Origin: Verrucomicrobiota bacterium
GTDB lineage: Bacteria > Verrucomicrobiota > Verrucomicrobiia > Limisphaerales > UBA9464
Direction of reading: 5' to 3'
Length of the DNA stretch: 64,000 nucleotides
NCBI GenBank assembly: GCA_017309115.1
Contig: JAFLEF010000027.1
Coordinates: 32,885-96,884, forward strand
A model generated the notes under the pieces. That model did not search any database. It was not told where the DNA came from and worked only from the letters and a program-made list of their open reading frames with translations. The position numbers and the translations under genes were made by a program. Shown in pieces: positions 20,543 through 36,697 of the stretch; position 1 is the stretch's first letter; each line of letters opens with the position of its first letter.

Positions 20543-21004
20543 TTAGATCTCGAAATCAATCGGTCGGTCTGGTTCCTGACGGAGTTGTTCGGCGCGAGTC
20601 ACCAAATCCGCAACGGTGGCGGTTTCCAAGATCTTTGCGATGGCATCTCGGACTTCCTTCATAAAGGACCGCAGTGGACAGCGACGTTCATCGGGGCAGG
20701 AACATTTCTCATAAAACCGCTCACTAATGCAGCCAACGGGGGCGAGCGCTCCTTCGAGATGGCGAACGACCTTGGCCAATGGAATCTTCTCGGGAGGCAC
20801 GGCTAGTCGGTAGCCCCCGGCCACTCCCCGGCGACTTTCAACGATGCCGGCTGACTTCAAGTCGAAGAGAATCTGTTCCAGGAATCGCTTGGGGATTCGT
20901 TGCTGGTCGGAAATCGACTGGATGCGGACGACGTCCTTTCCGTAGGCCTCACCCAGTGCTGTTAACGCTCGGAGAGCGTACTTCCCCCGAACTGACAATT
21001 TCAT
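20543..21004 (-). CDS. Rrf2-family transcriptional regulator with putative Fe-S cysteines
   Basis: 153 aa. The N-terminal winged helix-turn-helix is typical of Rrf2 proteins (MKLSVRGKYALRALTAL, IPKRFLEQILFDLKSAGIVESRRGVAGGYRL). Cysteines at 92, 101, 103 and 109 in the C-terminal loop resemble the 92/98/104 cluster ligands of IscR, so an iron-sulfur cofactor is plausible. Relatives control Fe-S assembly, NO response (NsrR) or cysteine metabolism (CymR). Its upstream region carries a 12-bp sequence identical to one at the promoter of the sulfur operon at 34.5 kb, which points to sulfur control. The neighbouring plus-strand porin gene is divergent. Confidence 0.9.
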   Translation of the reverse strand: MKLSVRGKYALRALTALGEAYGKDVVRIQSISDQQRIPKRFLEQILFDLKSAGIVESRRGVAGGYRLAVPPEKIPLAKVVRHLEGALAPVGCISERFYEKCSCPDERRCPLRSFMKEVRDAIAKILETATVADLVTRAEQLRQEPDRPIDFEI

Positions 21005-21105: not shown

Positions 21106-21130
21106 ATATACTCTATTGACAAAGTAGTGT
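21106..21130. promoter_or_regulatory. Putative Rrf2-type operator (imperfect palindrome) upstream of the Rrf2 gene
   Basis: The minus strand reads AATAGAGTATAT (21117 down to 21106), identical over 12 bp to 34510-34521 at the sulfur operon. On the plus strand the arms are ACTCTATT (21110-21117) and AGTAGTGT (21123-21130) around a 5-bp spacer; 6 of 8 positions pair. It lies ~100 bp before the Rrf2 start and ~475 bp before the divergent porin gene. Confidence 0.5.
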
Positions 21131-21603: not shown

Positions 21604-23265
21604 ATGAAGGTTCAGTTTCGTTGCGCCCTATTTTATCTGCTGATGCTGAGCGCGTTAACAGCGTGGAGCAGTCCTGCTTTTGCTCAAGCTGAGCCACCTG
21701 GATCAGTGACCGCTACGCCGTCTAACCCAGACGCGGCCCTGGTGCGAAAACTATTGGAACGGATCGAGGCTCTGGAAAAACGCGAACGGGAGCGAGAGCA
21801 AAGCGACCAGCAGAATCGCGCCGAAGAAGTGAAGCGCCTGCAAGACCGAATTGATCAGTTGGAGAACAAGGTGCAGTCCTTGGAATCGGGGGAGATTCTG
21901 CCGGAGATTGTGGTGCAACCGGAGGGTAAACCCACCGTGGAATCGTTGGAGCAGCAGGTAAAGATTGCGGAGCGCAAGAACGAACTCGCGTGGGAGGCGG
22001 CCGAGGCCAAGAGCCGGGAGGCGCCGCGTTTCCAGGCCGGACCGAATGGGTTCTCCTTCAGTTCCGCCGATACTAATTTTGTGCTGCGGTTACGGGGATT
22101 GATCGAGGTGGATTCCCGGACGTTTTTCGGCGAAAGCGAGTTTCTGGAGGGGAATGACGGGTTTCTGCTTCGCCGCGCGCGGCCCATCTTCGAGGGCACG
22201 CTGTATCGCGATTTCGACTTTGCGATTGTGCCCGACTTTGCGCCCCCCACCGCCACCCTGTTTGACGCGTATATCAATTACCGATACGAGCCCGGGCTCC
22301 AACTGCGAGTGGGCAAGTTCAAGCCCCCCGTGGGTCTGGAAATGTTGCAATCGGCGGCCACGCTGCCGTTTAACGAACGGTCGCTGGCGTCCGACCTTGT
22401 TCCCAACCGTGATGTCGGTCTGCAACTTTGGGGGGAATTGGAGGGAGGCAAATGGCACTACGCCTTGGGCGTTTTCAATGGAGTCGGCGATGGAGATATC
22501 TCAGCGAACGTGCCCTTTGATGACAACAAGGAGTTTGCCGGCCGGGTATTCGCCCATCCCTTTAAAGATCTTTCTCGCACCTGGCTGAAAGGAGTCGGCT
22601 TGGGTGTGGGGGGAAGCTTCGGTTTGGTCAGCTCCAACGTGGCCGGCTTGCCCAACAACATCGGCGGCACGCTGCCCGGATACTGGACCGATGGTCAGCA
22701 ACAGTTCTTCGCCTACAATCCGTTGGCGGGAACCGTGGTGGCTGACGGCCAACACTGGCGGATTCAACCGCAAGGCACTTACTTCCTGGGACCCTTCGGG
22801 TTCGCCGTAGAGTACAGCGTCTCGTACCAAGATGTCCTGAACAGTGCTACGTTGCGGAGGGCTTCGCTCGATAACACGGCTTGGTCGATTACGGGACAGT
22901 GGATGTTGACCGGGGAACCCGCCTCGCGCCAAGCGATCGTCCCCAAAAACCCTTTCAATCCCCGTCTGGGTGGTTGGGGTGCCTGGCAATTGGTCGGTCG
23001 ATACGGTCAGTTGCACGTCGACGAAGAGGCCTTCCAGGGATTTTCAAATCCCGATACCTCCGCCGAATCGGTCGGCACGTGGTCTGTTGGACTCAACTGG
23101 TGGCTGAATCGCAACATTCGGATCCTCACCAGTTTCTCTTACAGCCTCTTCAATGGCGGTGGAGTCATCAATCCCGTCGATCCCAACAGCGTCCTCCCGC
23201 CGGCGACGGTCACCGCAACGGGGAATGAAAAGGTCTTCTTTACCCGGATCCAACTCGGCTTCTGA
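21604..23265 (+). CDS. OprP/OprO-type outer-membrane porin
   Basis: About 553 aa from ATG 21604, giving signal peptide MKVQFRCALFYLLMLSALTAWSS...FAQA; a start 11 codons upstream would spoil it. Residues ~45-100 form a Glu/Lys/Arg coiled coil (LERIEALEKRERERE, RLQDRIDQLENKVQSLE), as in trimeric OprP-like porins. The rest is a beta barrel with family motifs FLLRRARPIFEGTLYRDFDFAIVPDF, DAYINYRYEPGLQLRVGKFKPPVGLE and RSLASDLVPNRDVGLQLWG, ending in terminal Phe (FTRIQLGF) for BAM recognition. OprP/O carry phosphate or polyphosphate; the anion here is unknown. It is the first gene of the plus-strand block that includes a PstS-like protein. Confidence 0.88.
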   Translation: MKVQFRCALFYLLMLSALTAWSSPAFAQAEPPGSVTATPSNPDAALVRKLLERIEALEKREREREQSDQQNRAEEVKRLQDRIDQLENKVQSLESGEILPEIVVQPEGKPTVESLEQQVKIAERKNELAWEAAEAKSREAPRFQAGPNGFSFSSADTNFVLRLRGLIEVDSRTFFGESEFLEGNDGFLLRRARPIFEGTLYRDFDFAIVPDFAPPTATLFDAYINYRYEPGLQLRVGKFKPPVGLEMLQSAATLPFNERSLASDLVPNRDVGLQLWGELEGGKWHYALGVFNGVGDGDISANVPFDDNKEFAGRVFAHPFKDLSRTWLKGVGLGVGGSFGLVSSNVAGLPNNIGGTLPGYWTDGQQQFFAYNPLAGTVVADGQHWRIQPQGTYFLGPFGFAVEYSVSYQDVLNSATLRRASLDNTAWSITGQWMLTGEPASRQAIVPKNPFNPRLGGWGAWQLVGRYGQLHVDEEAFQGFSNPDTSAESVGTWSVGLNWWLNRNIRILTSFSYSLFNGGGVINPVDPNSVLPPATVTATGNEKVFFTRIQLGF

Positions 23266-23307
23266 TCCCGCGAGCCCCGCGATTCACTCCTCAATATCCA
23301 AGTGTTT

Positions 23308-24306
23308 ATGAATTCTATGAAACCAGTACGCTTGTTGTTAACTCCTCCGCCCAAAATCGTGCTCGTCGCCGGTTTGGCTCTAGTCGGCTCCGTGTTGCAA
23401 GCCGCACCATTTCTCTACTCACCCGGAGATTTGTTGTTGGCGTTTCGTCAGACTGGAAATGCTGATGACCTGGTCGTGAACGTTGGAGCCGCCACGAATT
23501 ACACCTCAATTCCCGACAATACGACGGTCGTAGTTCCCGCGCTTTCCTCAGAGCTTCTGACCGCCACATTCCCGAGTTTGAACGGCTTGATCTGGTCCGT
23601 TTCTGGAGCCACGCGATCACCCCAATCTGGATTCCCGTCCCAGACACTCTGGGTCACTGCGCCTCGACTGCTGGCGGAGGTGCCGGCGTCAGCCTGGTTG
23701 CGGAAGGGACAGTTCGTGCAGGGCAATGCCGCCTCCCAGATTGACGCCGTGGGGGTGAACGCCGCGGCGTTCAGCAGTCGGACGCCAGCAGGTCCAGCCA
23801 ACACGACGACCGGTGTCGCTATCCCGGTGGCCAATGAGGCGGCGTTTACTCAACTGATTGGTGCGGCCGGCGACTTTTCCGGGGTGTTTCAGGGAAATGT
23901 GGAGAATACCACAGCCGACGACTTTGACGGTGATCCCGCCAATGTCTCGCGTTCGGATCTGTTTGAACTCCTCCCGGGGACAACCGCCGGAGGCTCGATC
24001 AACACTGCCGGTCGGCATTTGGGATTCTTTGAACTGAAGCCTGATGGAACCCTGATCTTTAGCACCCGTACAGCCGTCGTTCCGCCCCCGGTGATCCAGT
24101 CGATTAACCGCGTCGGAGACCAGACCTCCATCACCTTTGCGACGGTCGCCGGAGCCACCTATCGACTGCGAGCGGCCGATGGTCTGACCCAGCCGCTCTC
24201 CGCTTGGTCGGTGGGATCTTCGTTGGTGGGGTCCGGAGGGCAGGGGGTTCTCCAGGATACCAGTGGCAGTCCGGTTCGCTTCTATGTCGTCGAAGTGAAT
24301 CCTTGA
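23308..24306 (+). CDS. Secreted protein of unknown function (FLYSPGDLLLAFRQTG type)
   Basis: 332 aa from ATG 23308 (a GTG at 23302 and an ATG at 23317 are also in frame). Signal peptide to about residue 35 (LVGSVLQAAP). The mature N-terminus FLYSPGDLLLAFRQTGNADDLVVNVG is a pattern I recognise from many verrucomicrobial exported proteins of unknown function. The C-terminal ~70 residues (VPPPVIQSINRVGDQTSITFATVAGATYRLRAAD) look like a small beta domain common at the ends of secreted proteins in this group. There is no PEP-CTERM anchor. It lies between the porin and the PstS-like gene, with short gaps on both sides, so probably one transcript. Confidence 0.75.
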   Translation: MNSMKPVRLLLTPPPKIVLVAGLALVGSVLQAAPFLYSPGDLLLAFRQTGNADDLVVNVGAATNYTSIPDNTTVVVPALSSELLTATFPSLNGLIWSVSGATRSPQSGFPSQTLWVTAPRLLAEVPASAWLRKGQFVQGNAASQIDAVGVNAAAFSSRTPAGPANTTTGVAIPVANEAAFTQLIGAAGDFSGVFQGNVENTTADDFDGDPANVSRSDLFELLPGTTAGGSINTAGRHLGFFELKPDGTLIFSTRTAVVPPPVIQSINRVGDQTSITFATVAGATYRLRAADGLTQPLSAWSVGSSLVGSGGQGVLQDTSGSPVRFYVVEVNP

Positions 24307-24354
24307 ATTGACAGACATTAATTTACTCCAACGTCAGCTACCAGCATACGAACT

Positions 24355-25437
24355 ATGAATATCAAGAAATTGGCACTCCTATCCGCGACGGGACTCCTCA
24401 GCCTGGCAGCAGTCCGGGCTCAGGTGGAGATCAACATTTCCGGGGCCGTGGCGTTCCGGGATACCGCCTATCGGGCTATCCGTAACCTCTATGGTGCGAA
24501 CCTAGTCTCGCAGAATCCCGCTGATAGTCCGACCGCCTCATCCCAACTAAAGGTCAATTGGACGGGAACGATTCCGGCCCTATTTGGGAATCAGGCGGTG
24601 ACCGTCCGGGCCTTTTACAATGGAGCGGTCGCTGGAATTCAGGACCTCACTCAGGATCGCTCCGTTCTCTTTCTCAACACCACAACACCCGGAGACACCA
24701 ACACGGTGGCGTTGAAATCCGATCTGGCGTTATCCTCGGTGTTTCAGCGTTCGACCGTTTACACCACGCCGACCCTGGATGACGCCCGGTTCGGGGTGAC
24801 TCCAATCACGCTGGTCCGAAGCACGACCGCTTCCTCCGGGATCACCAACATCAACTCGCAACAGTTTCGGACGCTGGCGGCCAACGGTAGCCTGCCGACC
24901 TGGTTCTTTTCCGGAAACACGAACGAGGTTAACCCGGTGGTCTTCATCAACCGGGACCCGACTGCTGGACAGCGCGTGGTTCTCTTCAAGGATTCCGGAT
25001 TCAACGGATCCCCGATTTCCTATACGTGGGACATTCCCTCGTCCAGCTTCGTGATTGATCCCACGGGTCGCACGGCGCCGCAGATTCAGACTCAGCTGAA
25101 CACAGCGGGTCCGGCCATCAGTTTTCTCGTGACGTTGGATGCATTCGGAGTGAATGGCGGTGCCAACGTCCTCGCGTATAACGGAAGCCTTCCGTTCAGG
25201 GGAACCTTCAACAACGTAGCGAACGACTTTACCCCGGTCATCAATGGCCAATACAGCCTGTGGGTCTACGAGCACATCTTCTCCCGCAGCACGGCGTCCG
25301 CGAACGTTCGGTCGTTCCGCGATGCTCTGATCCGTGCGATCGACACTGAACTCCAGATTTCGGCGTTTTCGATTCCGCTGAGCAAGATGCGCGTCGAGCG
25401 GGTGGCCGATGGCGCTCCGGTCGCGCCGGTGGAGTAA
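24355..25437 (+). CDS. PstS-like periplasmic binding protein without transporter genes
   Basis: 360 aa with signal peptide MNIKKLALLSATGLLSLAAVRAQ. The mature sequence opens INISGAVAFRDTAYRAIRN, resembling the 'SGSTAFR' phosphate-loop start of PstS-type proteins, followed by FYNGAVAGIQDLT, ITNINSQQFRTLAANGSLPTWFFSGN and VVFINRDPTAGQRVVLFKDSGF, which parallel the PstS segments that contact the anion and hinge. I therefore assign it to the type II periplasmic-binding superfamily, PstS-like. No pstC/A/B genes are nearby. Position between an anion porin and a TPS/TonB module suggests binding of phosphate or another oxyanion or ester, but this is inference. Confidence 0.62.
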   Translation: MNIKKLALLSATGLLSLAAVRAQVEINISGAVAFRDTAYRAIRNLYGANLVSQNPADSPTASSQLKVNWTGTIPALFGNQAVTVRAFYNGAVAGIQDLTQDRSVLFLNTTTPGDTNTVALKSDLALSSVFQRSTVYTTPTLDDARFGVTPITLVRSTTASSGITNINSQQFRTLAANGSLPTWFFSGNTNEVNPVVFINRDPTAGQRVVLFKDSGFNGSPISYTWDIPSSSFVIDPTGRTAPQIQTQLNTAGPAISFLVTLDAFGVNGGANVLAYNGSLPFRGTFNNVANDFTPVINGQYSLWVYEHIFSRSTASANVRSFRDALIRAIDTELQISAFSIPLSKMRVERVADGAPVAPVE

Positions 25438-25480
25438 ACCGGACGTCTGGATTTGCCCCATGCAAAGCTCCGGCACGACC

Positions 25481-27946
25481 ATGCGAGTGGAGTGTGTTCC
25501 GAACCCAGCCCGAGGGTTTCGGGGAGCACCTTGGTTTGGGCTTCTGCTCGCCGGGGTCCTTGCAGGGATGTTTGACGTTTGGGCGAAGCCGACGGGCGGA
25601 GCCGGGGGCACGAATGGACCAGTCCGCGGCGTGTCTCCACGCTTCAAGGTCCACCAGTATGTATTGCTGGGTCCATCTACGCTCTCCCCGGAACGAGTCC
25701 AAGAGGTCATGTCGGGGGCTGTGGGTTCGGAGGTTACTTCGGAGCAGATGCGCGACGGATTGCGTCGATTGCAACGCCTGCTGGAAGAGGAGGGCTTGGC
25801 TGGGGTGACCCTGAGTCTCGCCCGACAACCCATCACTAATGGAGTCGTCGGAATTCGAGTGCAGACAGCGGCGATGCCGACCACATCCCGAGATACCTTT
25901 GAGGTTCGCAGCTTCGAAGTGCGGGGAAATCAGACGCTCACTTCCTCAGAAGTTCAAGAAAGCCTGGCCCCGGCAATCGGGTCGGCCGTGACGGTGGCGG
26001 AAATTCGGGCGGCTCTGGCGCGCCTTCAAGCGGTGTATCGGGAGCGGGGTTTGGTGGATGCCACGGTGACACTGCCAGAGCAGGCGCCAGCGCAGGGAAA
26101 GGTTCGAATTGAAGTGTCCGAGGGAGTGCCGCTGAGGGTGGCGTTGCCGACTTTCGATGCGAATGCCTCCTTGGCAGCGGGAACTCCAAAGACGCCGGTC
26201 TTCGAAGTGAGGCGGTATGACGTTTCCGGAAACTCCCTGCTCAGACCCGAGGTGGTGGACCAGATTCTGACGAATGCGACGGGTGCGGAGGTAACCCTGA
26301 CACAGATCAGGAAGGCTTTGGGCGAACTGCAATTGGCTTACCGGGAGCGGGGTTATGCCACCGTTACCGTGGGTCTGCCGCAGCAGCAACTCACGAATGC
26401 CGTGGTTAAGGTCCAGGTGATTGAAGGCGAGTTGGTGGACATTCGGGTGACGGGCAACCGGCACTTTAGTTCGAACAATGTCACGCGTGCCTTGCCGAGC
26501 CTCGCGACCAACCAGGTCCTAAATAGCCGGGTGTTTCAAAGCGAGTTGGACATCGCCAATCAGAACCGGGACCGGCAGATCTACCCCGTTGTGGGTCCAG
26601 GTCCGGAACCTGGAACCAGTTCGCTGAACCTTAAGGTAAAGGATCGGCTTCCCATCCATGGCCGCTTGGAGGTCAACAATTACAACACTCCGGCAACGCC
26701 AAGTTGGCGGATAAATACCTCCGCGCAGTATAACAATCTCTGGCAGTTGGAACATCAGGTCGGCCTCTCCTACGGATTCAGCCCGCAGGAATACAAGAAC
26801 CCAATCCCACAGCCTGACCTTCTTCTGAATCGACCCTTGATTGCCAATTTCGGCGGATACTATCGGATGCCATTCGGTCCGCCGGAGGCCCTGTCCTCCC
26901 GGCTGAACTCTTCGACGCGGTTCGGCTATGACGAAGCGACTCGGGAGTTTCGTCTGCCACCGGCTGACGGGCAGTCCGAGGCCACGGTCTACGGCAGCGC
27001 TTCCTCCAACGATACCGGAGTGCAGTATGGACCGCCTCTGATCGTGACCGACAAACCGGGGCTGAAAATCGTCTCCCAAGACACCGGTCGAAATCTCACG
27101 GACAATGCCGCAATCGGCGGACGGTTCAGCTTTCCGAAGATCGTCGGCCAAACTCATCGTCTGGCGTTCTCGGCGGGGCCTGATCTGAAATACTTTTCGA
27201 CGGAGAGTTATAACACGAACAACTTCTTCTTCACCCAGACCTACACGACCCCTCAGGGCGGGGTAATCACAACCAACTGGGTGGAGTCGTCTCCCCAGCC
27301 CGTCCGCAACAATGACGTGCACTATCTGCCGTTATCAGTCGGTGTGGACTATTCCCACAAGGATCGGACCGGAACGATGTCGGCCAATGTTGGGGTGAGC
27401 TACAATTTCGTGGGTAACGCGGCTGAGTTTCGAGCTCTCGCCTTGTCGCCTTCCGCAAAGGCAGACTGGGCCAAGTTTGTTGCCTCTGCGAATCGGGATC
27501 AAAAATTGTGGGGCAATTGGAACCTTTGGTTGCGGGCATCAGCTCAGGCCGCCACGGGACCGCTGATCAACAACGAGCAATTTGCGCTGGGCGGGATGAA
27601 CAGTGTTCGGGGCTATTTTGAAGGTGATGAAAATGGTGATGCTGGCTGGTTTGGAAGCGCGGAATTGCGAACGCCGTATCTCGTGGAAAACGTGCCGATT
27701 TGGAAGGATCAGGCGCCCGTCTGGGTGCGGGCATTGATTTTCATGGATGTGGGACAACGCTTTATTTATCAGGCGCCCAGCTTCCTTGAGCAGTTTAACA
27801 CGCTATGGGGAACCGGCTTTGGTTTGAGCGCCAATATTAACAATCACGTGGACGTCCGCATCACCGTCGGCTGGCCGTTGCTGAATTCGATCAACACGGA
27901 TGAAGGAACGGCTCGCACCTATTTCTCTTTGGGAGGACAGTTCTAA
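25481..27946 (+). CDS. TpsB/ShlB-FhaC-type two-partner secretion transporter with four POTRA domains
   Basis: About 821 aa from ATG 25481 (ATG 25460 is an alternative). After a signal peptide come four POTRA-like repeats at roughly 55-130, 140-215, 240-316 and 317-388. Repeats 2 and 3 share FEVRxxxVxGNxxL and YRERGxxxxTVxLP, and the fourth begins VDIRVTGNRHFSSNNV. The C-terminal Omp85-superfamily barrel carries the conserved loop motif GGMNSVRGYFEGDENGD and ends FSLGGQF. FhaC-type transporters usually have two POTRAs, so two are extra here. It exports the cognate TpsA across the outer membrane; the tpsA ATG overlaps its stop by 1 bp (TAATG). Confidence 0.92.
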   Translation: MRVECVPNPARGFRGAPWFGLLLAGVLAGMFDVWAKPTGGAGGTNGPVRGVSPRFKVHQYVLLGPSTLSPERVQEVMSGAVGSEVTSEQMRDGLRRLQRLLEEEGLAGVTLSLARQPITNGVVGIRVQTAAMPTTSRDTFEVRSFEVRGNQTLTSSEVQESLAPAIGSAVTVAEIRAALARLQAVYRERGLVDATVTLPEQAPAQGKVRIEVSEGVPLRVALPTFDANASLAAGTPKTPVFEVRRYDVSGNSLLRPEVVDQILTNATGAEVTLTQIRKALGELQLAYRERGYATVTVGLPQQQLTNAVVKVQVIEGELVDIRVTGNRHFSSNNVTRALPSLATNQVLNSRVFQSELDIANQNRDRQIYPVVGPGPEPGTSSLNLKVKDRLPIHGRLEVNNYNTPATPSWRINTSAQYNNLWQLEHQVGLSYGFSPQEYKNPIPQPDLLLNRPLIANFGGYYRMPFGPPEALSSRLNSSTRFGYDEATREFRLPPADGQSEATVYGSASSNDTGVQYGPPLIVTDKPGLKIVSQDTGRNLTDNAAIGGRFSFPKIVGQTHRLAFSAGPDLKYFSTESYNTNNFFFTQTYTTPQGGVITTNWVESSPQPVRNNDVHYLPLSVGVDYSHKDRTGTMSANVGVSYNFVGNAAEFRALALSPSAKADWAKFVASANRDQKLWGNWNLWLRASAQAATGPLINNEQFALGGMNSVRGYFEGDENGDAGWFGSAELRTPYLVENVPIWKDQAPVWVRALIFMDVGQRFIYQAPSFLEQFNTLWGTGFGLSANINNHVDVRITVGWPLLNSINTDEGTARTYFSLGGQF

Positions 27947-30900
27947 TGAAGCATTCCAACAATCGACGATCAGTGGGGCGACGAACAACCGGCTCTCTGG
28001 GCATACTGGCCGCCTTGACCCCGTGGATGGTCCAGGCCAATCCCCACGGTCTGAGCGTTCAGAGCGGCTCGGCCACGGTCTCTACGCTGGGAAATCAATT
28101 GACCATTTCGGCCTCTCACCAAGCGGTGTTGAATTGGCAGTCCTTCAACATTCAGCCGGGCGAGACGACTCGCTTCGAACAACCCAGCGCAAGTTCAGTG
28201 GTCTGGAATCGGATTCACGACGCACAGCCCTCCCAGATCTGGGGTAATCTGGAAGCCAATGGCATCGTGGTTCTGATGAACTCGTCAGGCTTCTATTTCG
28301 GACCGAATGCCTACGTGGGAGCTGCGGGTTTGGTGGTGTCGACAGCCATGGCTCCTGCCGAGTCTGCCGCCGGACTTTTCTGGCAATTCAATGGTGCGCC
28401 GCCCCAGGCCGGCATTGTTAACCACGGACAGTTGCGGGCCTCACCGGGTGGTTCGTTGTTCCTAATCGCGGAACGGATCGAGAACCATGGTGGGTTGAGT
28501 GCTCCGGGAGGTCAGGTCGGGTTGCTTGCCGGCCAGGAGGTCCTCCTGAGCAGTCGCCCCGACGGACTCGGAATCACCTCGTCGGTTCGTCTGCCGTCGG
28601 GCTCTGTCAACAATTCTGGCCGGATCGTGGCGGATGCCGGGACAATTGCCCTGCAGGCGGAAGTGGTAAACCACTCGGGACTGCTGCAAGCCAACACGGT
28701 TCGCGAACGCAACGGGGTGATTGAACTGGTGGCGGCAGAAGCGATCGAGTTACAGGCGAACTCCCGAATCGAGGCGTCTGGAGGAGAAGCAGGGGATGCT
28801 GGTCGAGTGGTGATTAAGTCGGCCGGGAGGTATCGGGATACTGATTCCGCGGTGATTGTCGTCTCTGGAGGGCGTTCGGGAGGCGATGGTGGGTTTGTGG
28901 AAGTTTCGGCTGCTTCCATGGCGTCCATCCGCGCGGATATTGACGGGAGTGCAAAGGCCGGGAGCGTGGGCGGTAAACTCTACATTGATCCGACCGATAT
29001 CGTAATCGGCAATACAGGTTCCGGATCCATCGGAGGCGGCTCCGTGGGGCAGAACGATCCGCCTACAACCCTCAATCTCGACGTCAACTCCGCGTTCGTG
29101 GGATTCTCCGAGATCCATCTTCAGGCCACCCGGAATATTCAGTTGGTGGCCAACACGCTTTGGGATCTGGCCGCCAGCACCGGGGTTTCGAGTCCCGGCA
29201 GCCGCCTCATTCTGGAAGCCGGCAATAATATCAGCCTCGGCTCAGGGTCGAGTCTGGTCGCGAGTCCGGGTTGGTCGATCTCCTTGTGGGCGGGACGTGA
29301 TTGGAGCACAGAGTCGGGCGTTCGTTCCGGGGTGGGGAACATTCAGGTCTCGGGATCGGGTTCCATCCTTTCCCATGATGGAACCGTCGACCTAAGGGCC
29401 GGAAACAATGTCACCGTGGGCAACGGATTCATTCGCTCGGTTGGCGGTGGAGACATCTCCGTGTTGGCCCAGGGGGGAAACATCAATACGGGAACTCGCG
29501 CCAACGGGTTTCTCTTTCGACCCACCGGTTACTCGGTGGACCCCGACTTGGGCGGCATCAGCACGGCTGCGGGAGGGGATGTGACGTTGGTCGCCGGTCA
29601 GGACATCATCAGTTTTCTCCCCCTTCCGGGCGGAGTTCAAACCGATGGCGGCAGCGGGGCCTTCGGTGCTCGAGCGGGTAACGTGACGTTGACCGCTGGT
29701 CGGGACATTTCGGGTCATTTTGTGGTGCGTCGTGGCGTGGGCATTCTGTCCGCGGGTCGCAATGCCGGCACGGAATCCCGTTTGTTGGCCTTGAGTCTGG
29801 TAGATGGTGGCTGGGAAGTGACCGCCGGTCAGAACGTCCTGCTCCAGGAAGTCCGCAATCCCAATGGCGTCTTCAACAATGTCGGCTTCGCGAATTCGGC
29901 CACGAAGCATCTCTTCGACTACTCGGATTCCAGTTACACGCTCTTGTCCGGCGGCAACTCCGTACAACTTCGAGGTACTGCGCTCCCCCGGTTTGAGGAC
30001 GATTTTTCCCGGAGTCTGACGCCGATCTATCCCGCCATATTGGAGATTACTGCGGGAGCCGGTGGAGTGAATCTGGGAAATGATGTGACCCTGTTCCCGT
30101 CACCCATTGGGAATCTCAAGATTTCTACGACCGACGGTGGATCGGTCACGGGATCCAAACCAGGCGATCTGGTTCAATTGGTAGTTTCAGATAGCAGCAA
30201 GAAGCAGTATCGGGAGACCGGGGATTTCGGGCTGGCGGACCACGCCGCCGTGCCAATCCACCTCCTTGATCCCCAGCCGATTGAACTGAACATCTCCGGT
30301 GACTTGTCGGGCGTGCTGCTGGGAGTCCCGAAACGCGCGGAAATCACTGTCGGTGGCAATCTGATCAACAGCCGTTTCGAAGGTCAGAATCTTCGCTCCA
30401 GTGACCTTACTCGAATCACGGTGGCGGGCGATATTCGGAATCGCAACGAGTTCACCAGCGTGCCTCTGGCAGCGGTTCCCGACTGGTCGCTGTTGGATCT
30501 CGCTTTTCCGCCGCTGAACGGGGATCTGGCCGGCATCATTGGTTTGTTGCAGTACGACGCCGCCAACAAAACGATCACCTTCCGCGGCCGCATGACGGGG
30601 GATCAGCAGCGGATTCTGTCGAATCTTCCGGTCATGGTTTTCGATGCCAACGGACTTCCCGTTCTCGCGCCCAATGGCGACCCGGCTACTCGAATCGTGC
30701 CGTTTCTTCCGGCGGAAGTTACCCAAGCGCTTTACCAGAACAGCCAGGACGTTCCGTTGAATCCGGATACTGGGTACCGGCTGGGCGGCGGTGGGCGCTT
30801 CGAAGTGTCGGCACGGAATCTCGATCTGGGCGCCACGGTCGGCATCGTCTCTCAGGGACCGCGGGGCAATTCAGCCTTGGCCAACTACTTCAATCGGGGA

Positions 30901-31965
30901 GCCGACATCTCGGTGAACCTGAGCGGGAACCTCGACATGTTCTCTACCACAATCTCCTCCCTGAACGGAGGAAGCATTACGGTTTTGGCGGATGGCGATA
31001 TCAACGTGGGTTCGCGTTTCTTCACTGGGAATGACTCGCGCGCCCGGGGCATCTTCACGGTCGATCCCAGCGACGTTACGGTCATTGCCCGCGGAGACAT
31101 CAACGTCAATGGATCCCGTATCGCCGCGTACGACGGCGGAAGCGTCTTGGTTCGCTCGTTGGAAGGCACGGTTGACGCTGGAACTGGCGGGAGTGGCGTG
31201 GCTGCGGTGGAGAAGATTGTCGTCGATCCGGTGACCCGGCAGATTCTGACCTACGCTCCGACCATTCCCGGAAGCGGCATTCTTGCCACCACCTTTCCGC
31301 CTCCTTTGGATCCCGCCTTCCCGGCGTCGCTGAACCCGGTCGGAAACATTACCGTTGAGGCGCCGCGGGGAGACATCATTGCCAACGCCGGAGGAGTGAT
31401 CCAAATGTCGTTGAACGGAATCGGTCGCGACGGAAGGACAGTAACCCTCCGGGCGGGGACCAAGGATGCCGAAGGCAATGTGATTCATGTGGGCAGCATT
31501 GATGCCACGGGTTCCGGAGTCATCGGCAGCACGGTCAAGTTGGAGGCCACCGGAAACATCACCGGCGTGGTGGTGGCCCGGGAAAACATCGACGTCACGG
31601 CGCAGCAGAGTGTCAACGTCACAGCGCTGGCTCAGGGAAGCGTCAACGTGAGCGCGGGCGGCACTATTTCCGGAACGATCGTCGGAATTGGCAGCGTCAA
31701 TGCCAGCGGCGCCTCCGTGGATGCGGCATTGCTGTCCCAGAATGTGACCGCCAGCGGAGATGTCTCCTCCTCGTCCCAGGTTGGTTTCAGCCAAGGCTCA
31801 GCTGCCAACGCGGCCAGCCAGAGTCTTCAGGCGGATGACCAGGGACGTGCCGTCGCTTCGACTTCCACCGAGCAGGACGCCGACGAATTGAAGCGAGGGA
31901 AGCGTGAACTTCCGTTGCTCTCCCGCTCGGTGGGCCGCGTCACTGTGATCCTCCCCAAGCCCTAA
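27946..31965 (+). CDS. TpsA filamentous haemagglutinin-family exoprotein
   Basis: 1339 aa. After a signal peptide (to about residue 31) comes the TPS secretion domain: GLSVQSGSATVSTLGNQLTIS, AVLNWQSFNIQPGETTRFEQPS, VVWNRIHDAQPSQIWGNLEANG and VVLMNSSGFYFGPNAYVGAAGLVVST, all classic FhaB/HMW N-terminal features. The remainder is a long beta-helix rich in repeated VTLVAGQDI, GDINVGSR, GNITVEAPRGDI and NVTALAQGSVNVSA units. There is no toxin domain or obvious anchor; it ends in a Gln/Asp-rich stretch and VTVILPKP. It is probably a surface-retained or released fibrous adhesin or binding protein, secreted by the adjacent TpsB. Confidence 0.9.
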   Translation: MKHSNNRRSVGRRTTGSLGILAALTPWMVQANPHGLSVQSGSATVSTLGNQLTISASHQAVLNWQSFNIQPGETTRFEQPSASSVVWNRIHDAQPSQIWGNLEANGIVVLMNSSGFYFGPNAYVGAAGLVVSTAMAPAESAAGLFWQFNGAPPQAGIVNHGQLRASPGGSLFLIAERIENHGGLSAPGGQVGLLAGQEVLLSSRPDGLGITSSVRLPSGSVNNSGRIVADAGTIALQAEVVNHSGLLQANTVRERNGVIELVAAEAIELQANSRIEASGGEAGDAGRVVIKSAGRYRDTDSAVIVVSGGRSGGDGGFVEVSAASMASIRADIDGSAKAGSVGGKLYIDPTDIVIGNTGSGSIGGGSVGQNDPPTTLNLDVNSAFVGFSEIHLQATRNIQLVANTLWDLAASTGVSSPGSRLILEAGNNISLGSGSSLVASPGWSISLWAGRDWSTESGVRSGVGNIQVSGSGSILSHDGTVDLRAGNNVTVGNGFIRSVGGGDISVLAQGGNINTGTRANGFLFRPTGYSVDPDLGGISTAAGGDVTLVAGQDIISFLPLPGGVQTDGGSGAFGARAGNVTLTAGRDISGHFVVRRGVGILSAGRNAGTESRLLALSLVDGGWEVTAGQNVLLQEVRNPNGVFNNVGFANSATKHLFDYSDSSYTLLSGGNSVQLRGTALPRFEDDFSRSLTPIYPAILEITAGAGGVNLGNDVTLFPSPIGNLKISTTDGGSVTGSKPGDLVQLVVSDSSKKQYRETGDFGLADHAAVPIHLLDPQPIELNISGDLSGVLLGVPKRAEITVGGNLINSRFEGQNLRSSDLTRITVAGDIRNRNEFTSVPLAAVPDWSLLDLAFPPLNGDLAGIIGLLQYDAANKTITFRGRMTGDQQRILSNLPVMVFDANGLPVLAPNGDPATRIVPFLPAEVTQALYQNSQDVPLNPDTGYRLGGGGRFEVSARNLDLGATVGIVSQGPRGNSALANYFNRGADISVNLSGNLDMFSTTISSLNGGSITVLADGDINVGSRFFTGNDSRARGIFTVDPSDVTVIARGDINVNGSRIAAYDGGSVLVRSLEGTVDAGTGGSGVAAVEKIVVDPVTRQILTYAPTIPGSGILATTFPPPLDPAFPASLNPVGNITVEAPRGDIIANAGGVIQMSLNGIGRDGRTVTLRAGTKDAEGNVIHVGSIDATGSGVIGSTVKLEATGNITGVVVARENIDVTAQQSVNVTALAQGSVNVSAGGTISGTIVGIGSVNASGASVDAALLSQNVTASGDVSSSSQVGFSQGSAANAASQSLQADDQGRAVASTSTEQDADELKRGKRELPLLSRSVGRVTVILPKP

Positions 31966-31984
31966 ACCATCACTCTCCCAAATC

Positions 31985-32815
31985 ATGAGTATCCTCGATC
32001 CATCCCCGCTCCTGGCATCCGGGGCGCTTCAGTTCGCCTTCGAGAAGTCCACCCTGGAGGGCAAGATCACCATCAGCTGCCTGCTGGTTCTTTCCCTCTT
32101 TAGTTGGACCATCATCATCACCAAGTTCCGGCAGCTCTACATTGCCCGGAAGTGGTCCCGAAAGTTCTACGAAGCCTACGCCGAGACGCGTGATCCGCTG
32201 GACATTCGCAATCGCGCGGCGGATTTCGAAGGGGCTCCGGCTTTCCAAGTGTATATCCGGGGATCCGATGAGCTCGATTATCACCTGAAGAACAATGCGG
32301 TTCAGGTCGATGGTCAGAAGCGGGTGAGTCGGGGATCTTTTGAGGCGGTCAAAGTGACTTTGGAGGAATCGTCGGGCGCCGAGGCGATGGCGCTGGAGAA
32401 GGGGATGATTGTGCTGTCCACCGCCGTGGCCGGCGGACCGTTCATCGGATTGCTTGGCACCGTGTGGGGCGTGATGGAGACGTTTGCCGGAATCGCCAAG
32501 GCAAACTCGGCCAGTCTCACCGCGATGGCTCCGGGTGTCGCCGGTGCCTTGATTGCAACCGTCATTGGGTTGCTGGTCGCGATTCCCGCCATGTTTGCCT
32601 ACAACTTCATGGTCACCACCATTCGCGGAATCACTCAGGAACTGGATGGCTTTGCGAGTCGATTTGCCACGCAGATCGAACACCAATATGTGGATAATCG
32701 CGCGTTGTCCGAGGAAATCAGAGAGGCGAACGAGGTCTTGGCGGATCGCATTGTCGGGGCGCTGAAAGGACTGGGAACGGACTCTGCGAAGTCGGATCTG
32801 TCGACGACCTACTAG
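31985..32815 (+). CDS. exbB: MotA/TolQ/ExbB proton-channel family protein
   Basis: 276 aa, 19 bp after tpsA. Three transmembrane helices: about 30-46 (CLLVLSLFSWTIIITKF), about 140-165 (VLSTAVAGGPFIGLLGTVWGVMETF) and about 182-205 (GVAGALIATVIGLLVAIPAMFAYNF). The second and third contain the conserved small-residue/Thr pore motifs of ExbB/TolQ. With ExbD it converts the proton motive force into movement of TonB-type proteins. It is longer than E. coli ExbB, with an insertion after helix 1. Confidence 0.92.
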   Translation: MSILDPSPLLASGALQFAFEKSTLEGKITISCLLVLSLFSWTIIITKFRQLYIARKWSRKFYEAYAETRDPLDIRNRAADFEGAPAFQVYIRGSDELDYHLKNNAVQVDGQKRVSRGSFEAVKVTLEESSGAEAMALEKGMIVLSTAVAGGPFIGLLGTVWGVMETFAGIAKANSASLTAMAPGVAGALIATVIGLLVAIPAMFAYNFMVTTIRGITQELDGFASRFATQIEHQYVDNRALSEEIREANEVLADRIVGALKGLGTDSAKSDLSTTY

Positions 32816-32838
32816 GTCGGAAATTTGGGGAGAGCCGA

Positions 32839-33252
32839 ATGAAGAAGTGCTCGAGATCCGCACACGAGACGCTGACGGAGTTGAACATTACTCCTCTGCT
32901 GGATCTCGCGTTTGTTTTGCTGGTGATCTTCATCATCACCACCACTCCCATCGTCAATGATCTGGATGTGACCCTCCCGAGTGCCTCGAAGCGGCAGAAG
33001 GATCCGCCAAAAAAGGCGAACTACATTTCGGTGGAATCCTCGGGCCGAGTGTACCTGAACAAACAGGCCATTGAACCGATTGACCTCCAACAGGCACTGG
33101 CCACTCTGCGTATTGATGACCCGGATCTGAGCGTGATCATCCGGGGGGATGGGCGAACCAAGTATCGGCAGATTCGGGCCGTGCTGGATGCGTGTCAGCA
33201 GGCCAACGTGGTGAAAGTGGATCTTGCCACGGAACCGTTGGATTCACGCTAG
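32839..33252 (+). CDS. exbD: ExbD/TolR biopolymer transport protein (first copy)
   Basis: 137 aa. Single N-terminal transmembrane helix with the essential aspartate: ELNITPLLDLAFVLLVIFIITTTP, the hallmark of ExbD/TolR. The periplasmic domain (VTLPSASKRQKDPPK, YISVESSGRVYLNKQ, VIIRGDGRTKYRQIRAVLDACQQANV) is normal. It forms the proton pathway with ExbB. A second exbD lies two genes downstream on the other side of tonB; the two share the transmembrane segment but differ in the periplasmic part, so a heterodimer is possible. Confidence 0.94.
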   Translation: MKKCSRSAHETLTELNITPLLDLAFVLLVIFIITTTPIVNDLDVTLPSASKRQKDPPKKANYISVESSGRVYLNKQAIEPIDLQQALATLRIDDPDLSVIIRGDGRTKYRQIRAVLDACQQANVVKVDLATEPLDSR

Positions 33253-33254
33253 AA

Positions 33255-33956
33255 GTGAGCTTTCCCGTGATTCCCCAATCCCAACCGAGGCAACGCCGGA
33301 ACAATTCGAAGATCAATCTGCTGATCTCGCTGGCGTTTCATGTCGCCATTGTGTTGGCCCTGACCTATCTCGCGGCGCGCGAGGGACTATTGGGCAAAGA
33401 GCTTAAAAAGATTGCGGTGGAGATGGTGAAGGAGGAGGTGCCGAAGCCCAAGGAGCCGGAGCCGGAGAAGCCGCGGGAAGTGGAACCTCCACCCACGACC
33501 CCGACTCCAACACCGGAGACGCCGGTGGTGGAGACTCCCCGTCCGGTGGTCGCTCCTCCGCCGGCCTCAGGAGTGGCGGCGCCGCCGCCGGTGGCACCGC
33601 CTGCGGCGGAGTTGCCCTCGTTCGTGTTTGAGGGGGGAAAGGCGGTCCAAACGACGGCCGATCCCGTCCAGCTCTACAAAGGCCTCATTGAATATGCGCT
33701 CCGTTCGAAATGGGAGCGGCCCGCGGACGTGGAGGATGAGAAGTTTGTAGCGGAATTGGAAATCACGGTTGATCGCTCCGGGGCGTTCAGCGCTCCCAAT
33801 TGGAAACGAACCTCCGGACATGCGGAGTGGGATGCCTCGGTTCGCCGAGCCCTGGCGGCCACTCCTGGGCTCAATCGGGCGCCCCCGACCAATTTCCCCC
33901 CCCGCGTCATTGTCCGATTCGATGTCGAAGTCCCCACCGAACCCATTTTGCCCTGA
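33255..33956 (+). CDS. tonB: TonB-family energy transducer
   Basis: About 233 aa from GTG 33255, placed 2 bp after the exbD stop (GTG 33267 is also possible). A cytoplasmic basic tail (QPRQRRNNSKIN), one transmembrane helix with the characteristic His (LLISLAFHVAIVLALTYLA), a Pro/Glu/Lys-rich periplasm-spanning segment (about 65-130, KPKEPEPEKPREVEPPP) and a C-terminal TonB/TolA-like alphabeta domain (YALRSKWERPADVED, VAELEITVDRSGAFSAPNWKRTSGHAEWDASVRRAL, VIVRFDVEVP). No TonB-dependent receptor is in the window, so the partner may be elsewhere, or the motor may act on the TPS or porin products; the latter is speculation. Confidence 0.85.
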   Translation: MSFPVIPQSQPRQRRNNSKINLLISLAFHVAIVLALTYLAAREGLLGKELKKIAVEMVKEEVPKPKEPEPEKPREVEPPPTTPTPTPETPVVETPRPVVAPPPASGVAAPPPVAPPAAELPSFVFEGGKAVQTTADPVQLYKGLIEYALRSKWERPADVEDEKFVAELEITVDRSGAFSAPNWKRTSGHAEWDASVRRALAATPGLNRAPPTNFPPRVIVRFDVEVPTEPILP

Positions 33957-33962
33957 CTGGCC

Positions 33963-34370
33963 ATGAAGAAAACAACCCGCAGCCATCATGGCACCCTGAA
34001 CGAGTTGAACATCACTCCCCTTCTGGACCTGGTGTTTGTGCTCTTGGTGATTTTCATCATCACCACGCCTCAGCTGATGAACAATCTGGAGATGACTTTG
34101 CCCTCCAGTCAGGTGCCCCCGGTCGTACCGGATGCCCCCAAGCCGGAGATCAACCGGATCCAGGTCGATCGCAAGGGGGTGATTCGGCTTAACCAAACCG
34201 TGGTCACATTGGTGGAGTTGAAGAGTCGGCTAGAGGCGCGGAAACGGGCGGCGACTGACCTGGCTGTGGTCGTGAAGGGATCGGACGAGACCGACTACCA
34301 AAACATGATTAGCATCCTCGATGTCCTCCAGCAGCTCGAGATTACAAAGATCGGATTGGCGACGGATTGA
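33963..34370 (+). CDS. exbD: ExbD/TolR biopolymer transport protein (second copy)
   Basis: 135 aa, 6 bp after tonB. The transmembrane/proton motif is ELNITPLLDLVFVLLVIFIITTP, with the aspartate conserved; the periplasmic domain reads NNLEMTLPSSQVPP, INRIQVDRKGVIRLNQ and VVVKGSDETDYQNMISILDVLQQLEI. It completes an exbB-exbD-tonB-exbD unit. The duplicated exbD arrangement suggests a mixed ExbD dimer. It is the last gene before a ~170-bp AT-richer region that contains the palindromic operator of the sulfur operon. Confidence 0.93.
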   Translation: MKKTTRSHHGTLNELNITPLLDLVFVLLVIFIITTPQLMNNLEMTLPSSQVPPVVPDAPKPEINRIQVDRKGVIRLNQTVVTLVELKSRLEARKRAATDLAVVVKGSDETDYQNMISILDVLQQLEITKIGLATD

Positions 34371-34496: not shown

Positions 34497-34521
34497 ACTC
34501 TATTGACGTAATAGAGTATAT
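34497..34521 (+). promoter_or_regulatory. Palindromic operator at the sulfur-operon promoter
   Basis: A perfect 8-bp inverted repeat, ACTCTATT-GACGT-AATAGAGT (34497-34517), followed by ATAT. The right half with tail, AATAGAGTATAT, is identical to a site upstream of the Rrf2 gene. TATATT at 34517-34522 may be part of a -10 element, so a bound regulator would occlude the promoter. It is 19 bp from the YezD-like ATG. Confidence 0.65.
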
Positions 34522-34540: not shown

Positions 34541-34744
34541 ATGACGAATTCTGAAACGAGAACCGCGCAGTTGGAGTCGGAGACAGTGATTCCAGCTTGG
34601 CTGGAAACGGTGCGAGCCCAAGTCAGCAGCTTGAAGTTTGGCCAAGTGCAGATTGTGGTTCACGACGCTCGGGTAGTGCAGATCGAACGGGTGGAGAAGT
34701 TTCGGTTTGACGCCAAGCCGAATCGCAGTGGAGCGACCCAGTAA
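34541..34744 (+). CDS. YezD-family (DUF2292) small protein
   Basis: 67 aa from ATG 34541; a TTG 18 bp upstream is in frame but less likely. The core VSSLKFGQVQIVVHDARVVQIERVEKFRF matches the YezD/DUF2292 family, small proteins of unknown biochemical role that recur next to sulfate uptake and cysteine synthesis genes. It is the first gene after the palindromic operator and precedes the sulfate-binding protein by 44 bp, so it is likely expressed under sulfur limitation. No catalytic residues can be proposed. Confidence 0.82.
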   Translation: MTNSETRTAQLESETVIPAWLETVRAQVSSLKFGQVQIVVHDARVVQIERVEKFRFDAKPNRSGATQ

Positions 34745-34788
34745 GTTGGCTGCAGTTGGGTCTTGTTCGGTCTCGCCCTGATTGGTCC

Positions 34789-35814
34789 ATGAACGCGTTT
34801 CTTCGCTGGTTGTTCTTCTCGCGTTGGACCCTGCTGTTGAACTTGGTCCTCGGGGGGCTGGTTTGGGGCCGAGACGTCGAACTGCTGAATGTCTCCTTCG
34901 ATATCTCCCGGGAATTGTTTCAGGCCTATAATCCGGTGTTTGTGGAGCACTGGAGGAAGAGCGGGGGTGGCTCGCTGGTCATCCAGCAATCCCACGCCGG
35001 ATCTTCCAAACAGGCGCGGGCCGTCATCGATGGATTGGAGGGCGATGTCGTTACGTTCAATCTGGTGAGCGATATCGAGGCGCTGGCCTCCCGGGGCTTG
35101 GTGGCGGCTGACTGGCGCCAACGGTTTCCGAACGACTCCAGTCCCTTCACCTCGACAATTGTTTTTCTCACCCGTCGTGGGAATCCCAAGGGCATTCGGG
35201 ATTGGTCCGACCTCGCCCGGCCGGGGGTGTCGGTGATTGTTCCGAATCCAAAGACGTCGGGTAATGGCAAATACAGTTATCTGGCAGCGTATGGATACGC
35301 CCTCCGGCAATTCGGGCAGAATGATCAGCGAGCGCGTGAGTTTGTAGCGTCCATCTTCCGTAATGTTCCGGTGATGGAGGCAGGAGGCAGGGCGGCCTCC
35401 ACCACCTTTGTACAGCGGGAAATTGGTGATGTGCTGCTGACGTTTGAGGCTGAGGTACTCCTGAACTTGCAGGAGTTTGGCACCAATCGGTTCGAGCGGG
35501 TGACCCCTACCGTGAGCGTCCAGGCCGAAATGCCCGTTGCGGTGGTGGAGCGGGTGGCCAAGCGGCGGGGGACGTTGGTTTTGGCCAAAGCGTACCTTGA
35601 TTTTCTGTTCACTGAGGCCGGGCAGGATATTGCCGCCCAAAACTACTATCGGCCTCGTCTTGACTCGGTGGCACGCCGACATGCCGGCCTGTTTCCCGCG
35701 CTAGAACTCCTCTCCGTCGACCGAACGTTTGGCGGTTGGCGCAAGGCGACGGAAGTGCACTTTGCCGAGGGCGGCGTCTTCGATCAGGTCATCAACCAGA
35801 TTTCCCGCAGATAA
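34789..35814 (+). CDS. sbp: Sulfate/thiosulfate ABC transporter substrate-binding protein
   Basis: 341 aa from ATG 34789, giving signal peptide MNAFLRWLFFSRWTLLLNLVLGGLVWGRD. Family motifs: LLNVSFDISRELFQAYNPVF, QQSHAGSSKQARAVIDGLEGDVVTFN, FLTRRGNPKGIRDWSDLARPGVSVIVPNPKTSGNGKYSYLAAYGYA and EVLLNLQEF. SHAGSSKQA and PKTSGNGKYS are the sulfate-binding loops of CysP/Sbp. It delivers sulfate to a CysTWA transporter, but no permease or ATPase gene follows; the next genes are an AstE-like Zn enzyme and cysteine synthase. The transporter must be elsewhere, or the protein has another role. Confidence 0.93.
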   Translation: MNAFLRWLFFSRWTLLLNLVLGGLVWGRDVELLNVSFDISRELFQAYNPVFVEHWRKSGGGSLVIQQSHAGSSKQARAVIDGLEGDVVTFNLVSDIEALASRGLVAADWRQRFPNDSSPFTSTIVFLTRRGNPKGIRDWSDLARPGVSVIVPNPKTSGNGKYSYLAAYGYALRQFGQNDQRAREFVASIFRNVPVMEAGGRAASTTFVQREIGDVLLTFEAEVLLNLQEFGTNRFERVTPTVSVQAEMPVAVVERVAKRRGTLVLAKAYLDFLFTEAGQDIAAQNYYRPRLDSVARRHAGLFPALELLSVDRTFGGWRKATEVHFAEGGVFDQVINQISRR

Positions 35815-35860: not shown

Positions 35861-36697
35861 ATGCCTGTCAGTACCGATTCATCCACCTTCACCATGAGTG
35901 CGCCCGTTCGCCAGGCGTCCCGCCGCCGGTCCCTGATCCGTCTTTTGGAACCACTCGATCGGGTGGCGTCCGAGTGCACTCGGATTCTCTCCACCGGACA
36001 CAGCCACTTCGAGAACGATGGCGAGAACTACATGATTCCCCGGTTTCTTTACATCGGTCGTCCCGGGGGTGGGGAAATGATGCGGGTGGGCATCTTCGCC
36101 ACGATTCATGGTGACGAACCCGAAGGCGCAGTGGCCCTGGCGAGGTTACTCGACAATCTGGCCCGGCGGCCTGAATTGGGCGAAGGATTCGGGATCTTCA
36201 TTTATCCGCTCTGCAATCCGACGGGATTCGAAGACGGCACCCGGACGTCACGCAGTGGCCTGGATCTCAATCGGGAGTTTTGGAAAAACAGCGCCCAACC
36301 GGAAGTTCGATTCCTGGAGTCAGAGATCAACACCCACGGGTTTCACGGTATTGTCACCCTCCACAGTGACGACACCAGCGACGGACTTTACGGATTCGTC
36401 CGGGGAGCGGTTCTGTCCGAATACCTGCTTGAGCCAGCCCTGCGGGAGGCGAATCGATTTCTCCCCCGCAACCGTCGTTCGGTCATCGACGGTTTTGTTT
36501 CTCGTGAGGGAATCATCCATCAGGGATATCCCGGAATGCTGCAGTCGGCTCCCGGCAGCGTCCGTTCCCCGTTCGAGATTACTCTGGAGACTCCGCAGAA
36601 GGCCCCGCTCGACCGCCAGGTTTCGGCCTTGGTCAGTTCTTTGGAGACCATCCTTACGGAATATCGCCGGCTACAGTCCATCGCTCAAAACATCTAA
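35861..36697 (+). CDS. AstE/AspA-like M14-family zinc hydrolase
   Basis: 278 aa from ATG 35861. Zinc ligands are H83 and E86 in [10 protein letters not shown] and H168 in VTLHSDD; the substrate-carboxylate motif LDLNREFW (N137, R138) and a catalytic Glu in FEITLETP (about E243) complete the succinylglutamate desuccinylase/aspartoacylase signature. These enzymes deacylate N-acyl amino acids. Placement between a sulfate-binding protein and cysteine synthase suggests release of a sulfur amino acid or carboxylate from an N-acyl or peptide conjugate, but no family rule fixes the substrate. It starts 46 bp after sbp and ends 11 bp before cysK. Confidence 0.85.

Follow-up and report, generated by a model that had tools for sequence, protein, structure and literature searches.

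A nine-gene porin, two-partner secretion and Tol-like motor block in a Verrucomicrobiota bacterium as the probable surface arm of a sulfur-starvation regulon

The 64,000-nucleotide stretch of DNA considered here, hereafter the window, lies on contig JAFLEF010000027.1 (positions 32,885 to 96,884, forward strand) of assembly GCA_017309115.1, from a Verrucomicrobiota bacterium of the Limisphaerales. Its plus strand carries a block of nine genes encoding, in order, a porin, two exported proteins that we call g2 and g3, the partners TpsB and TpsA of a two-partner secretion (TPS) system, and ExbB-, ExbD-, TonB- and again ExbD-like motor proteins. We argue that this block is probably the part of a sulfur-starvation regulon that acts at the outer membrane and the cell surface. 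The block and its surroundings hold the following features:

20543..21004, minus strand: Rrf2-family regulator, divergent from the block (PF02082, E 1.5e-36)
21112..21128, plus strand: candidate regulator site TCTATTGACAAAGTAGT between the divergent Rrf2 and porin genes (first of the two genome matches at ≤1 mismatch)
21604..23265, plus strand: OprP/O-type porin with an N-terminal stretch that looks coiled-coil-like by eye (PF07396, E 1.3e-21)
23308..24306, plus strand: g2, secreted protein without known family (zero Cys/Met in the matched region after trimming)
24355..25437, plus strand: g3, PstS-fold periplasmic binding protein (Ser at the PstS Asp56 equivalent; TAGQR replaces the SGT loop)
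25481..27946, plus strand: TpsB outer-membrane translocator with three POTRA domains (POTRA_2 in three stretches, and ShlB)
27946..31965, plus strand: TpsA exoprotein with TPS secretion domain (PF05860, E 8.6e-28; TIGR01901)
31985..32815, plus strand: ExbB/TolQ-like motor subunit (PF01618)
32839..33252, plus strand: ExbD/TolR-like motor subunit 1 (PF02472; tolR 82.4 bits, below cut-off)
33255..33956, plus strand: TonB/TolA-like protein, start set by eye (PF13103, E 1.2e-10; TolA 30.8 bits, below cut-off)
33963..34370, plus strand: ExbD/TolR-like motor subunit 2 (PF02472; tolR 82.3 bits, below cut-off)
34499..34515, plus strand: candidate regulator site TCTATTGACGTAATAGA within a palindrome of 9-base arms with one mismatch (second of the two genome matches)
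34541..34744, plus strand: OscA/YezD-like small protein, DUF2292 (PF10055, E 1.4e-15; OscA model NF033785 46.9 bits, cut-off 85)
34756..35814, plus strand: Sbp, sulfate ABC transporter substrate-binding protein (NF008022, 411 bits, cut-off 288)
35861..36697, plus strand: AstE/AspA-like deacylase, start uncertain (PF24827, E 5.8e-10)
36709..37716, plus strand: cysteine synthase CysK (TIGR01139, 440 bits, cut-off 351)

TpsB, with its POTRA domains and ShlB/FhaC-type barrel, adjoins TpsA with its TPS domain, which is the gene arrangement of two-partner (type Vb) secretion, and TpsA is predicted to be exported through TpsB. No match to g2 was found in Pfam or NCBIfam, nor any PDB fold match at E ≤ 0.001; its structure model is confident (pLDDT 91). 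The divergent regulator belongs to the Rrf2 superfamily, and its best named model, CymR (NF047409), scores 89.7 bits against a cut-off of 195, short of what would assign it as a CymR-type cysteine regulator. The CymR of Bacillus senses sulfur jointly with CysK.

The palindrome at 34497 gave rise to the pattern TCTATTGACNNARTAGA, which, at ≤1 mismatch, matches the 7.5-Mb genome in two places: at 21112, before the porin gene, and at 34499, before the oscA-like–sbp–cysK genes. The reversed pattern, used as a control, has no match in the whole genome. Because TCTATTGACNNARTAGA was built from these two sites and related ones, its presence in the window is not independent evidence, whereas its rarity across the genome is. 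A second Rrf2 gene, whose product is 84% identical to that of the window, lies on another contig (L207:4241-9844, contig C68 of the window genome, G000), divergent from a sulfate ABC operon in which Sbp, CysW and CysA score above their cut-offs and CysT is named by its place and a CysW score below cut-off; a degenerate site with 3 mismatches stands between this regulator gene and the operon. To judge by sequence alone, the block thus shares a regulator site with sulfate-assimilation genes, as a member of a sulfur-starvation regulon would, and it would presumably be induced by sulfur shortage.

The block recurs in relatives, patchily. A search with g3 found a match in 21 of 59 genomes including that of the window, that is, in 20 of 58 relatives and in none of the four genomes of the same genus, so the system is patchy. 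Six relatives among the 20 stretches fetched have the whole nine-gene order, and in two more contig ends cut into it. TpsA itself matched 94 of 294 genomes of the order, the window genome counted, and a scan of named genomes, from which the best 80 of 135 relatives were retained, gave 79 loci. The record titles of these named relatives are mostly Verrucomicrobia, subdivision 3, Limisphaerales or Pedosphaera; four say only "bacterium", and three odd labels (two Proteobacteria, one Akkermansia) are probably wrong titles. Among 387 genomes drawn from the whole phylum, TpsA had two matches at E ≤ 1e-50, the window genome and one of the same order. After near-identical TpsA were merged and four loci without TpsA left out, 160 loci became 98 distinct TpsA loci, 10 of which, the window included, have the exact nine-gene order. 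The observation of the sequence-only reading, one plus-strand block of nine genes, is confirmed, and the refuting outcome that it had named, a lack of conserved order in relatives, does not occur. Where more than 3 kb of downstream sequence was available, ExbB lies directly 3' of TpsA in 13 of 15 sulfur-type, 18 of 30 AraC-type and 8 of 16 marker-less loci (types defined below), and the motor is therefore usual, not universal, among TpsA loci.

We classed a locus as sulfur-type if its fetched stretch holds a gene for Rrf2, an OscA-like DUF2292 protein, Sbp or CysK (the AstE-like gene did not serve as a marker), as AraC-type if it holds an AraC-family regulator, and as marker-less if it holds neither; many of the marker-less loci lie on short contigs. 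The 98 loci comprise 19 sulfur-type, 49 AraC-type and 30 marker-less ones, and none carries both kinds of marker. Since six genomes (G007, G022, G050, G113, G173 and G297) hold one locus of each type, the two look like parallel systems for different needs. At ≤2 mismatches the regulator motif occurs at 11 sites in 7 of the 19 sulfur-type loci, at 2 sites in the 30 marker-less loci and nowhere in the 49 AraC-type loci, and scrambled motifs give a mean of 0.17 sites in the sulfur-type loci. Of the 11 sulfur-type sites, ten fall outside the mapped genes and precede a gene for a porin, g2, an OscA-like protein, Rrf2 or an AstE-like protein. A variant allowing 4 mismatches proved too loose to be used alone (sulfur-type loci gave 56 sites and AraC-type loci 36, compared with 22 and 56 for shuffled sequence). 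At two loci (L043:18274-19999 and L059), paired sulfate-binding protein genes stand side by side upstream of the block. The AstE/AspA-like deacylase gene (35861-36697 in the window) also adjoins sulfur-type blocks recurrently; its substrate is perhaps an N-acylated sulfur amino acid.

In an unrooted TpsA tree of 90 rows, the AraC and sulfur states require two changes and a single sulfur clade is rejected (approximately unbiased test, p 6.2e-08); the sulfur-type loci form two separate clades. In a first TpsA tree, the second sulfur clade was nested within AraC-type rows with starred support. These clades served to compare amino acid composition, for which Cys+Met were counted in the regions matched by hidden Markov models, one copy per locus, with 25 N-terminal residues trimmed from g2, g3 and TpsA. 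The group S1 was chosen by hand on the tree and comprises 14 loci, of which six are marker-less; L057 and L072 of that clade were left out, and marker-less loci outside S1 were not used.

Two of the exported proteins of the sulfur clades, g2 and g3, are almost free of sulfur. None of the 22 sulfur-clade copies of g2 has any Cys or Met, over 6368 residues in all, while the AraC-type copies have 102 in 10877 residues (median 0.98 per 100); in g3, Cys+Met number 4 in 7274 residues against 245 in 13536, with medians of 0 and 1.60 per 100. Ranked by ratio, Met and Cys come last among the twenty amino acids in both proteins and both sulfur clades. The remaining proteins follow to a lesser degree, with medians per 100 for TpsA of 0.52 and 0.61 in the two sulfur clades against 0.95 in the AraC type, and values of 0.51 and 0.91 against 1.49 for TpsB and of 2.18 and 2.48 against 3.43 for ExbB; the porin, which has no AraC-type counterpart, stands at 0.25 in the first sulfur clade. 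In the window itself the porin has 0.39 and TpsA 0.54 Cys+Met per 100 residues, and nine other genes range from 0.85 (Sbp) to 3.92. Sulfur-poor products, most pronounced in g2 and g3, are what a sulfur-starvation regulon would be expected to encode, and this evidence is independent of the motif, its groups resting partly on place in the tree and not on neighbours. The production of sulfur-poor proteins under sulfate starvation is a described response in the available text of PMC8557817; in the part of PMC5069961 that was searched, the chosen terms gave nothing on such proteins.

The binding protein g3 bears on which anion the system handles. It has the PstS fold, and in the alignment the Ser-Asp-Val of the g3 family falls on that of PstS, whose Asp is Asp56 of the E. 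coli protein, one of its phosphate-contact residues. Asp56 accepts the proton of phosphate, so that sulfate is excluded, a rule reportedly owed to Luecke and Quiocho and to Wang et al. Across 64 g3 rows this Asp is present in 36 of 36 AraC-type copies and in 0 of 18 sulfur-type copies (18 and not 19, as sulfur-type locus L121 has no visible g3), which have 15 Ser, one Gly, one Ile and one Ala in its place; the ten marker-less rows divide into 6 Asp and 4 Ser. Fisher's test gives 1e-14 for the association with locus type, although the rows are related and hence not independent. The SG of the SGT loop is likewise present in all 36 AraC-type rows, three of which differ from SGTR in the last two letters, and lost in all 18 sulfur-type rows; the window copy, with Ser and TAGQR, has neither phosphate-contact motif. 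Other motifs differ between the two sulfur clades (GAVAFR...AGQR against mostly GGNAS...AVR), which fits two origins of the sulfur type. If the Asp was ancestral, as it is in PstS, both sulfur clades would have lost it separately, a direction of change that the unrooted tree leaves conditional. Apart from lacking the Asp and SGT motifs, the sulfur-type system differs from that of PstS in that no ABC permease was found among the scanned neighbours of the block.

The nearest known analogue of the block appears to be the PUMA3/sigma-VreI Pdt cluster of Pseudomonas aeruginosa, in which a TPS pair, ExbB, ExbD, TonB and a porin are also found together, a match at the level of families only. Its LapA is a DING/PstS relative. 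The available text of PMC7035377 gives the cluster as pdtA-phdA-pdtB-exbB2-exbD2-tonB4-PA0696 together with lapA, PA0696 being a putative porin, and places it under the control of sigma-VreI and phosphate, and according to that of PMC2729926, the TPS, ExbBD and PA0696 homologues stay associated in PUMA3 relatives of other proteobacteria. One could accordingly suppose that the block is a phosphate-starvation system like PdtAB/TonB4 that merely adjoins sulfur genes, as the co-occurrence of the same families in a regulon active under phosphate limitation (PMC7035377 and PMC2729926, in the parts available) and the PstS fold of g3 would allow. We consider this very improbable, given that the phosphate-reading Asp is missing from every sulfur-type g3, that sulfur genes neighbour 19 loci, that the proteins are sulfur-poor and that the block and sulfate genes have a site in common. 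The nutrient-starvation role and the Pdt parallel drawn by the sequence-only reading both hold, but the shared sites with sulfate genes, the recurrent sulfur neighbours, the loss of the Asp and the near sulfur-free proteins point to sulfur and not to phosphate.

The two clusters would work alike without being the same system, as their regulators, neighbours and nutrient differ. The Pseudomonas cluster answers to phosphate and to a cell-surface-signalling sigma factor (PMC7035377, available text), and one ExbD and no sulfate genes are named for it there; no counterpart of VreA, VreI or VreR stands beside the block, in that a search confined to the closest genes on either side found no extracytoplasmic function sigma or anti-sigma factor. 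In the HxuC-HxuB-HxuA system of Haemophilus influenzae, a TPS exoprotein and a TonB-dependent transporter cooperate in nutrient capture (PMC5422565, in part); Hxu, however, handles haem and has its receptor in the operon, whereas no receptor was found at the block locus. PUMA3 and Hxu came up in a literature search, mostly of titles, in which no TPS-motor system tied to sulfur was found, nor any in Verrucomicrobiota. The terms TPS, ExbB, PdtA and OscA are absent from the available part of a paper on sulfur starvation in Pseudomonas (PMC12581299), and a TPS haemolysin of Serratia is lowered by sulfate starvation (PMC6687942, in part), which is the opposite direction in another organism. On the sulfur-starvation reading, a puzzling set of genes becomes a nutrient system open to test, in bacteria represented here by little else than metagenome-assembled genomes, and sulfur supply is connected with two-partner secretion and a Tol-like motor. 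The loci also amount to a natural experiment, because related machines either keep or lack the phosphate-reading residue and either have or lack sulfur in their proteins, so that ligand and nutrient could be predicted from sequence.

The motor had been read from the sequence as a TonB motor, and MotA_ExbB, ExbD and TonB C-terminal domains are indeed present, but the scores lie closer to Tol. Among NCBIfam models, the ExbB-like protein scores 147.6 bits with TolQ and 116.9 with ExbB, both ExbD-like proteins match TolR best, and TolA is the sole match of the TonB-like protein; all of these are below cut-off, so that the ExbB and ExbD equivalog cut-offs are not reached and the higher-scoring Tol models do not reach theirs either. 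The likeness to Tol-Pal thus extends over TolQ, TolR and TolA, with the difference that the block has a second ExbD/TolR and neither TolB nor Pal. It also stands apart from a Tol-like set on contig C39, where a TolQ-like gene of equal score (41% identical to that of the block) is followed by TolR- and TolA-like frames, recognised by eye, and by the best TolB match of the genome, itself below cut-off; we presume this set to be the housekeeping Tol genes.

The motor could nevertheless be a TonB system for a TonB-dependent receptor encoded elsewhere in the genome and co-regulated for the uptake of sulfonates or sulfate esters. Three proteins with a Plug domain occur in the window genome, and at least one in 33 of the 38 searched genomes with a TpsA locus, the window genome included. 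All three in the window genome, however, lie on other contigs, none at the locus, and one adjoins ExbB-family genes (contig C85). An AraC-type block with its motor (L066) occurs in G142 (94% complete), a genome that has no match to Plug or TonB_dep_Rec, and G215 (97% complete; L074) has no Plug and one barrel match below cut-off. The three other genomes without Plug are G297 (73% complete), with no receptor-barrel match either, G293, with barrel matches, and G240, with two barrel matches above cut-off and a fetched TpsA locus that lacks the motor. These cases suggest, for the AraC type only, that the motor need not serve TonB-dependent receptors; with the Tol-like scores, this leads us to regard a receptor-serving motor as rather unlikely.

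In the sulfur-starvation reading that we favour, a CymR-like Rrf2 regulator acting through the common palindrome would control both the block and the adjacent oscA-like–sbp–cysK genes, a step well supported by sequence. With good support as well, the exported proteins, chiefly g2 and g3, would have been stripped of Cys and Met, which would allow their production during sulfur shortage. g3 appears to have lost the acidic residue that confers phosphate specificity on PstS, as expected if it binds an anion that is fully ionised, for instance sulfate or an organosulfate. The anion, sulfate or an organosulfur compound, might then enter through the porin and be bound by g3 and Sbp, and the sulfate ABC transporter encoded elsewhere would import it. 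TpsB would display TpsA at the surface, where TpsA may hold substrate or attach the cell. In the least secure step, the Tol-like motor, distinct from the presumed housekeeping Tol genes, might energise this envelope complex and not a TonB-dependent receptor.

The role of TpsA admits a serious rival, namely a sulfur-regulated adhesin or biofilm exoprotein system in which sulfur shortage is the cue and attachment, not uptake, the product. The N-terminal domain of TpsA is of the haemagglutinin type (TIGR01901), and the Pseudomonas TpsA is classed among surface-exposed adhesion proteins in the available text of PMC2729926; that of PMC5422565 gives its function as unknown and its phenotype as one of virulence in nematodes. 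An O/P-type porin and a binding-protein fold nevertheless accompany TpsA in all 10 loci with the nine-gene order. We judge attachment to be the less probable product, although an adhesive TpsA is compatible with the sulfur-starvation reading and the two are not exclusive.

Several observations weigh against that reading. Besides the limited independence of the motif and the absence of g3 from the same genus, the motif covers only 7 of the 19 sulfur-type loci at ≤2 mismatches, and, with 3 mismatches, the site at the sulfate ABC operon is weak. The SGT loop, which holds the anion in PstS, is lost along with the Asp, so g3 may bind something else or nothing. Depletion of Cys and Met in TpsA and ExbB is milder and accompanied by shifts in other residues, and in TpsB of the second sulfur clade Cys is not depleted (ratio 1.27). 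Finally, the motor could serve the three Plug receptors of the window genome.

A broader evolutionary scenario is possible, though we lean against it: an envelope starvation machine of this order would have switched nutrient twice, from an AraC-governed version with a phosphate-type binding protein to sulfur versions in two separate lineages, with AraC lost, Rrf2 and sulfur genes gained, the phosphate-reading Asp replaced and the exported parts purged of Cys and Met, and with a dedicated Tol-like motor driving a TPS/porin complex in place of a TonB-dependent receptor. As to phosphate genes in the AraC-type flanks, the 25 commonest of 100 matched Pfam families include one alkaline phosphatase, one PBP_like_2 and six Porin_5, in a scan of 103 open reading frames picked by hand from 225 listed (44 of the 49 AraC-type loci). 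A phosphate role for the AraC type would thus rest mainly on the binding-protein motifs.

The AraC-type loci hold a further peculiarity, in that a single open reading frame encodes both the AraC regulator and TpsB in 32 of the 49 (for example L044:7448-10237, L066:11068-13959 and L085:6195-8960), and HTH_18, POTRA_2 and ShlB were found in the same protein in each of three tested with Pfam. All 32 linkers contain a stretch of 13 residues, hydrophobic overall (mean hydropathy 1.9 to 3.0) and in most cases preceded by basic residues, that looks like an internal signal sequence. Separate internal starts for TpsB seem unlikely, because, with ATG and GTG considered, an in-frame start at or before this stretch exists in 17 of 32 and only one has a Shine-Dalgarno-like match. 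It is highly unusual for one gene to encode a DNA-binding protein together with an outer-membrane translocator; as far as the available text of PMC4104836 goes, a survey published in 2014 and covering 12,869 Omp85/TpsB proteins found no other domain profiles alongside the TpsB barrel. Within the clade whose AraC gene is separate, some loci (L097 and L109) have the motor genes beyond AraC on the opposite strand, facing away from tpsB-tpsA, and some others have no motor on the fetched stretch.

A scan for promoters and terminators found 3 and 10, against 3.7 and 14.5 in shuffled sequence, hence no excess. Downstream of the sulfur genes, window positions 38049-40486 hold tandem minus-strand frames that both match polysaccharide pyruvyl transferase, and their listed overlap is probably a matter of start choice.

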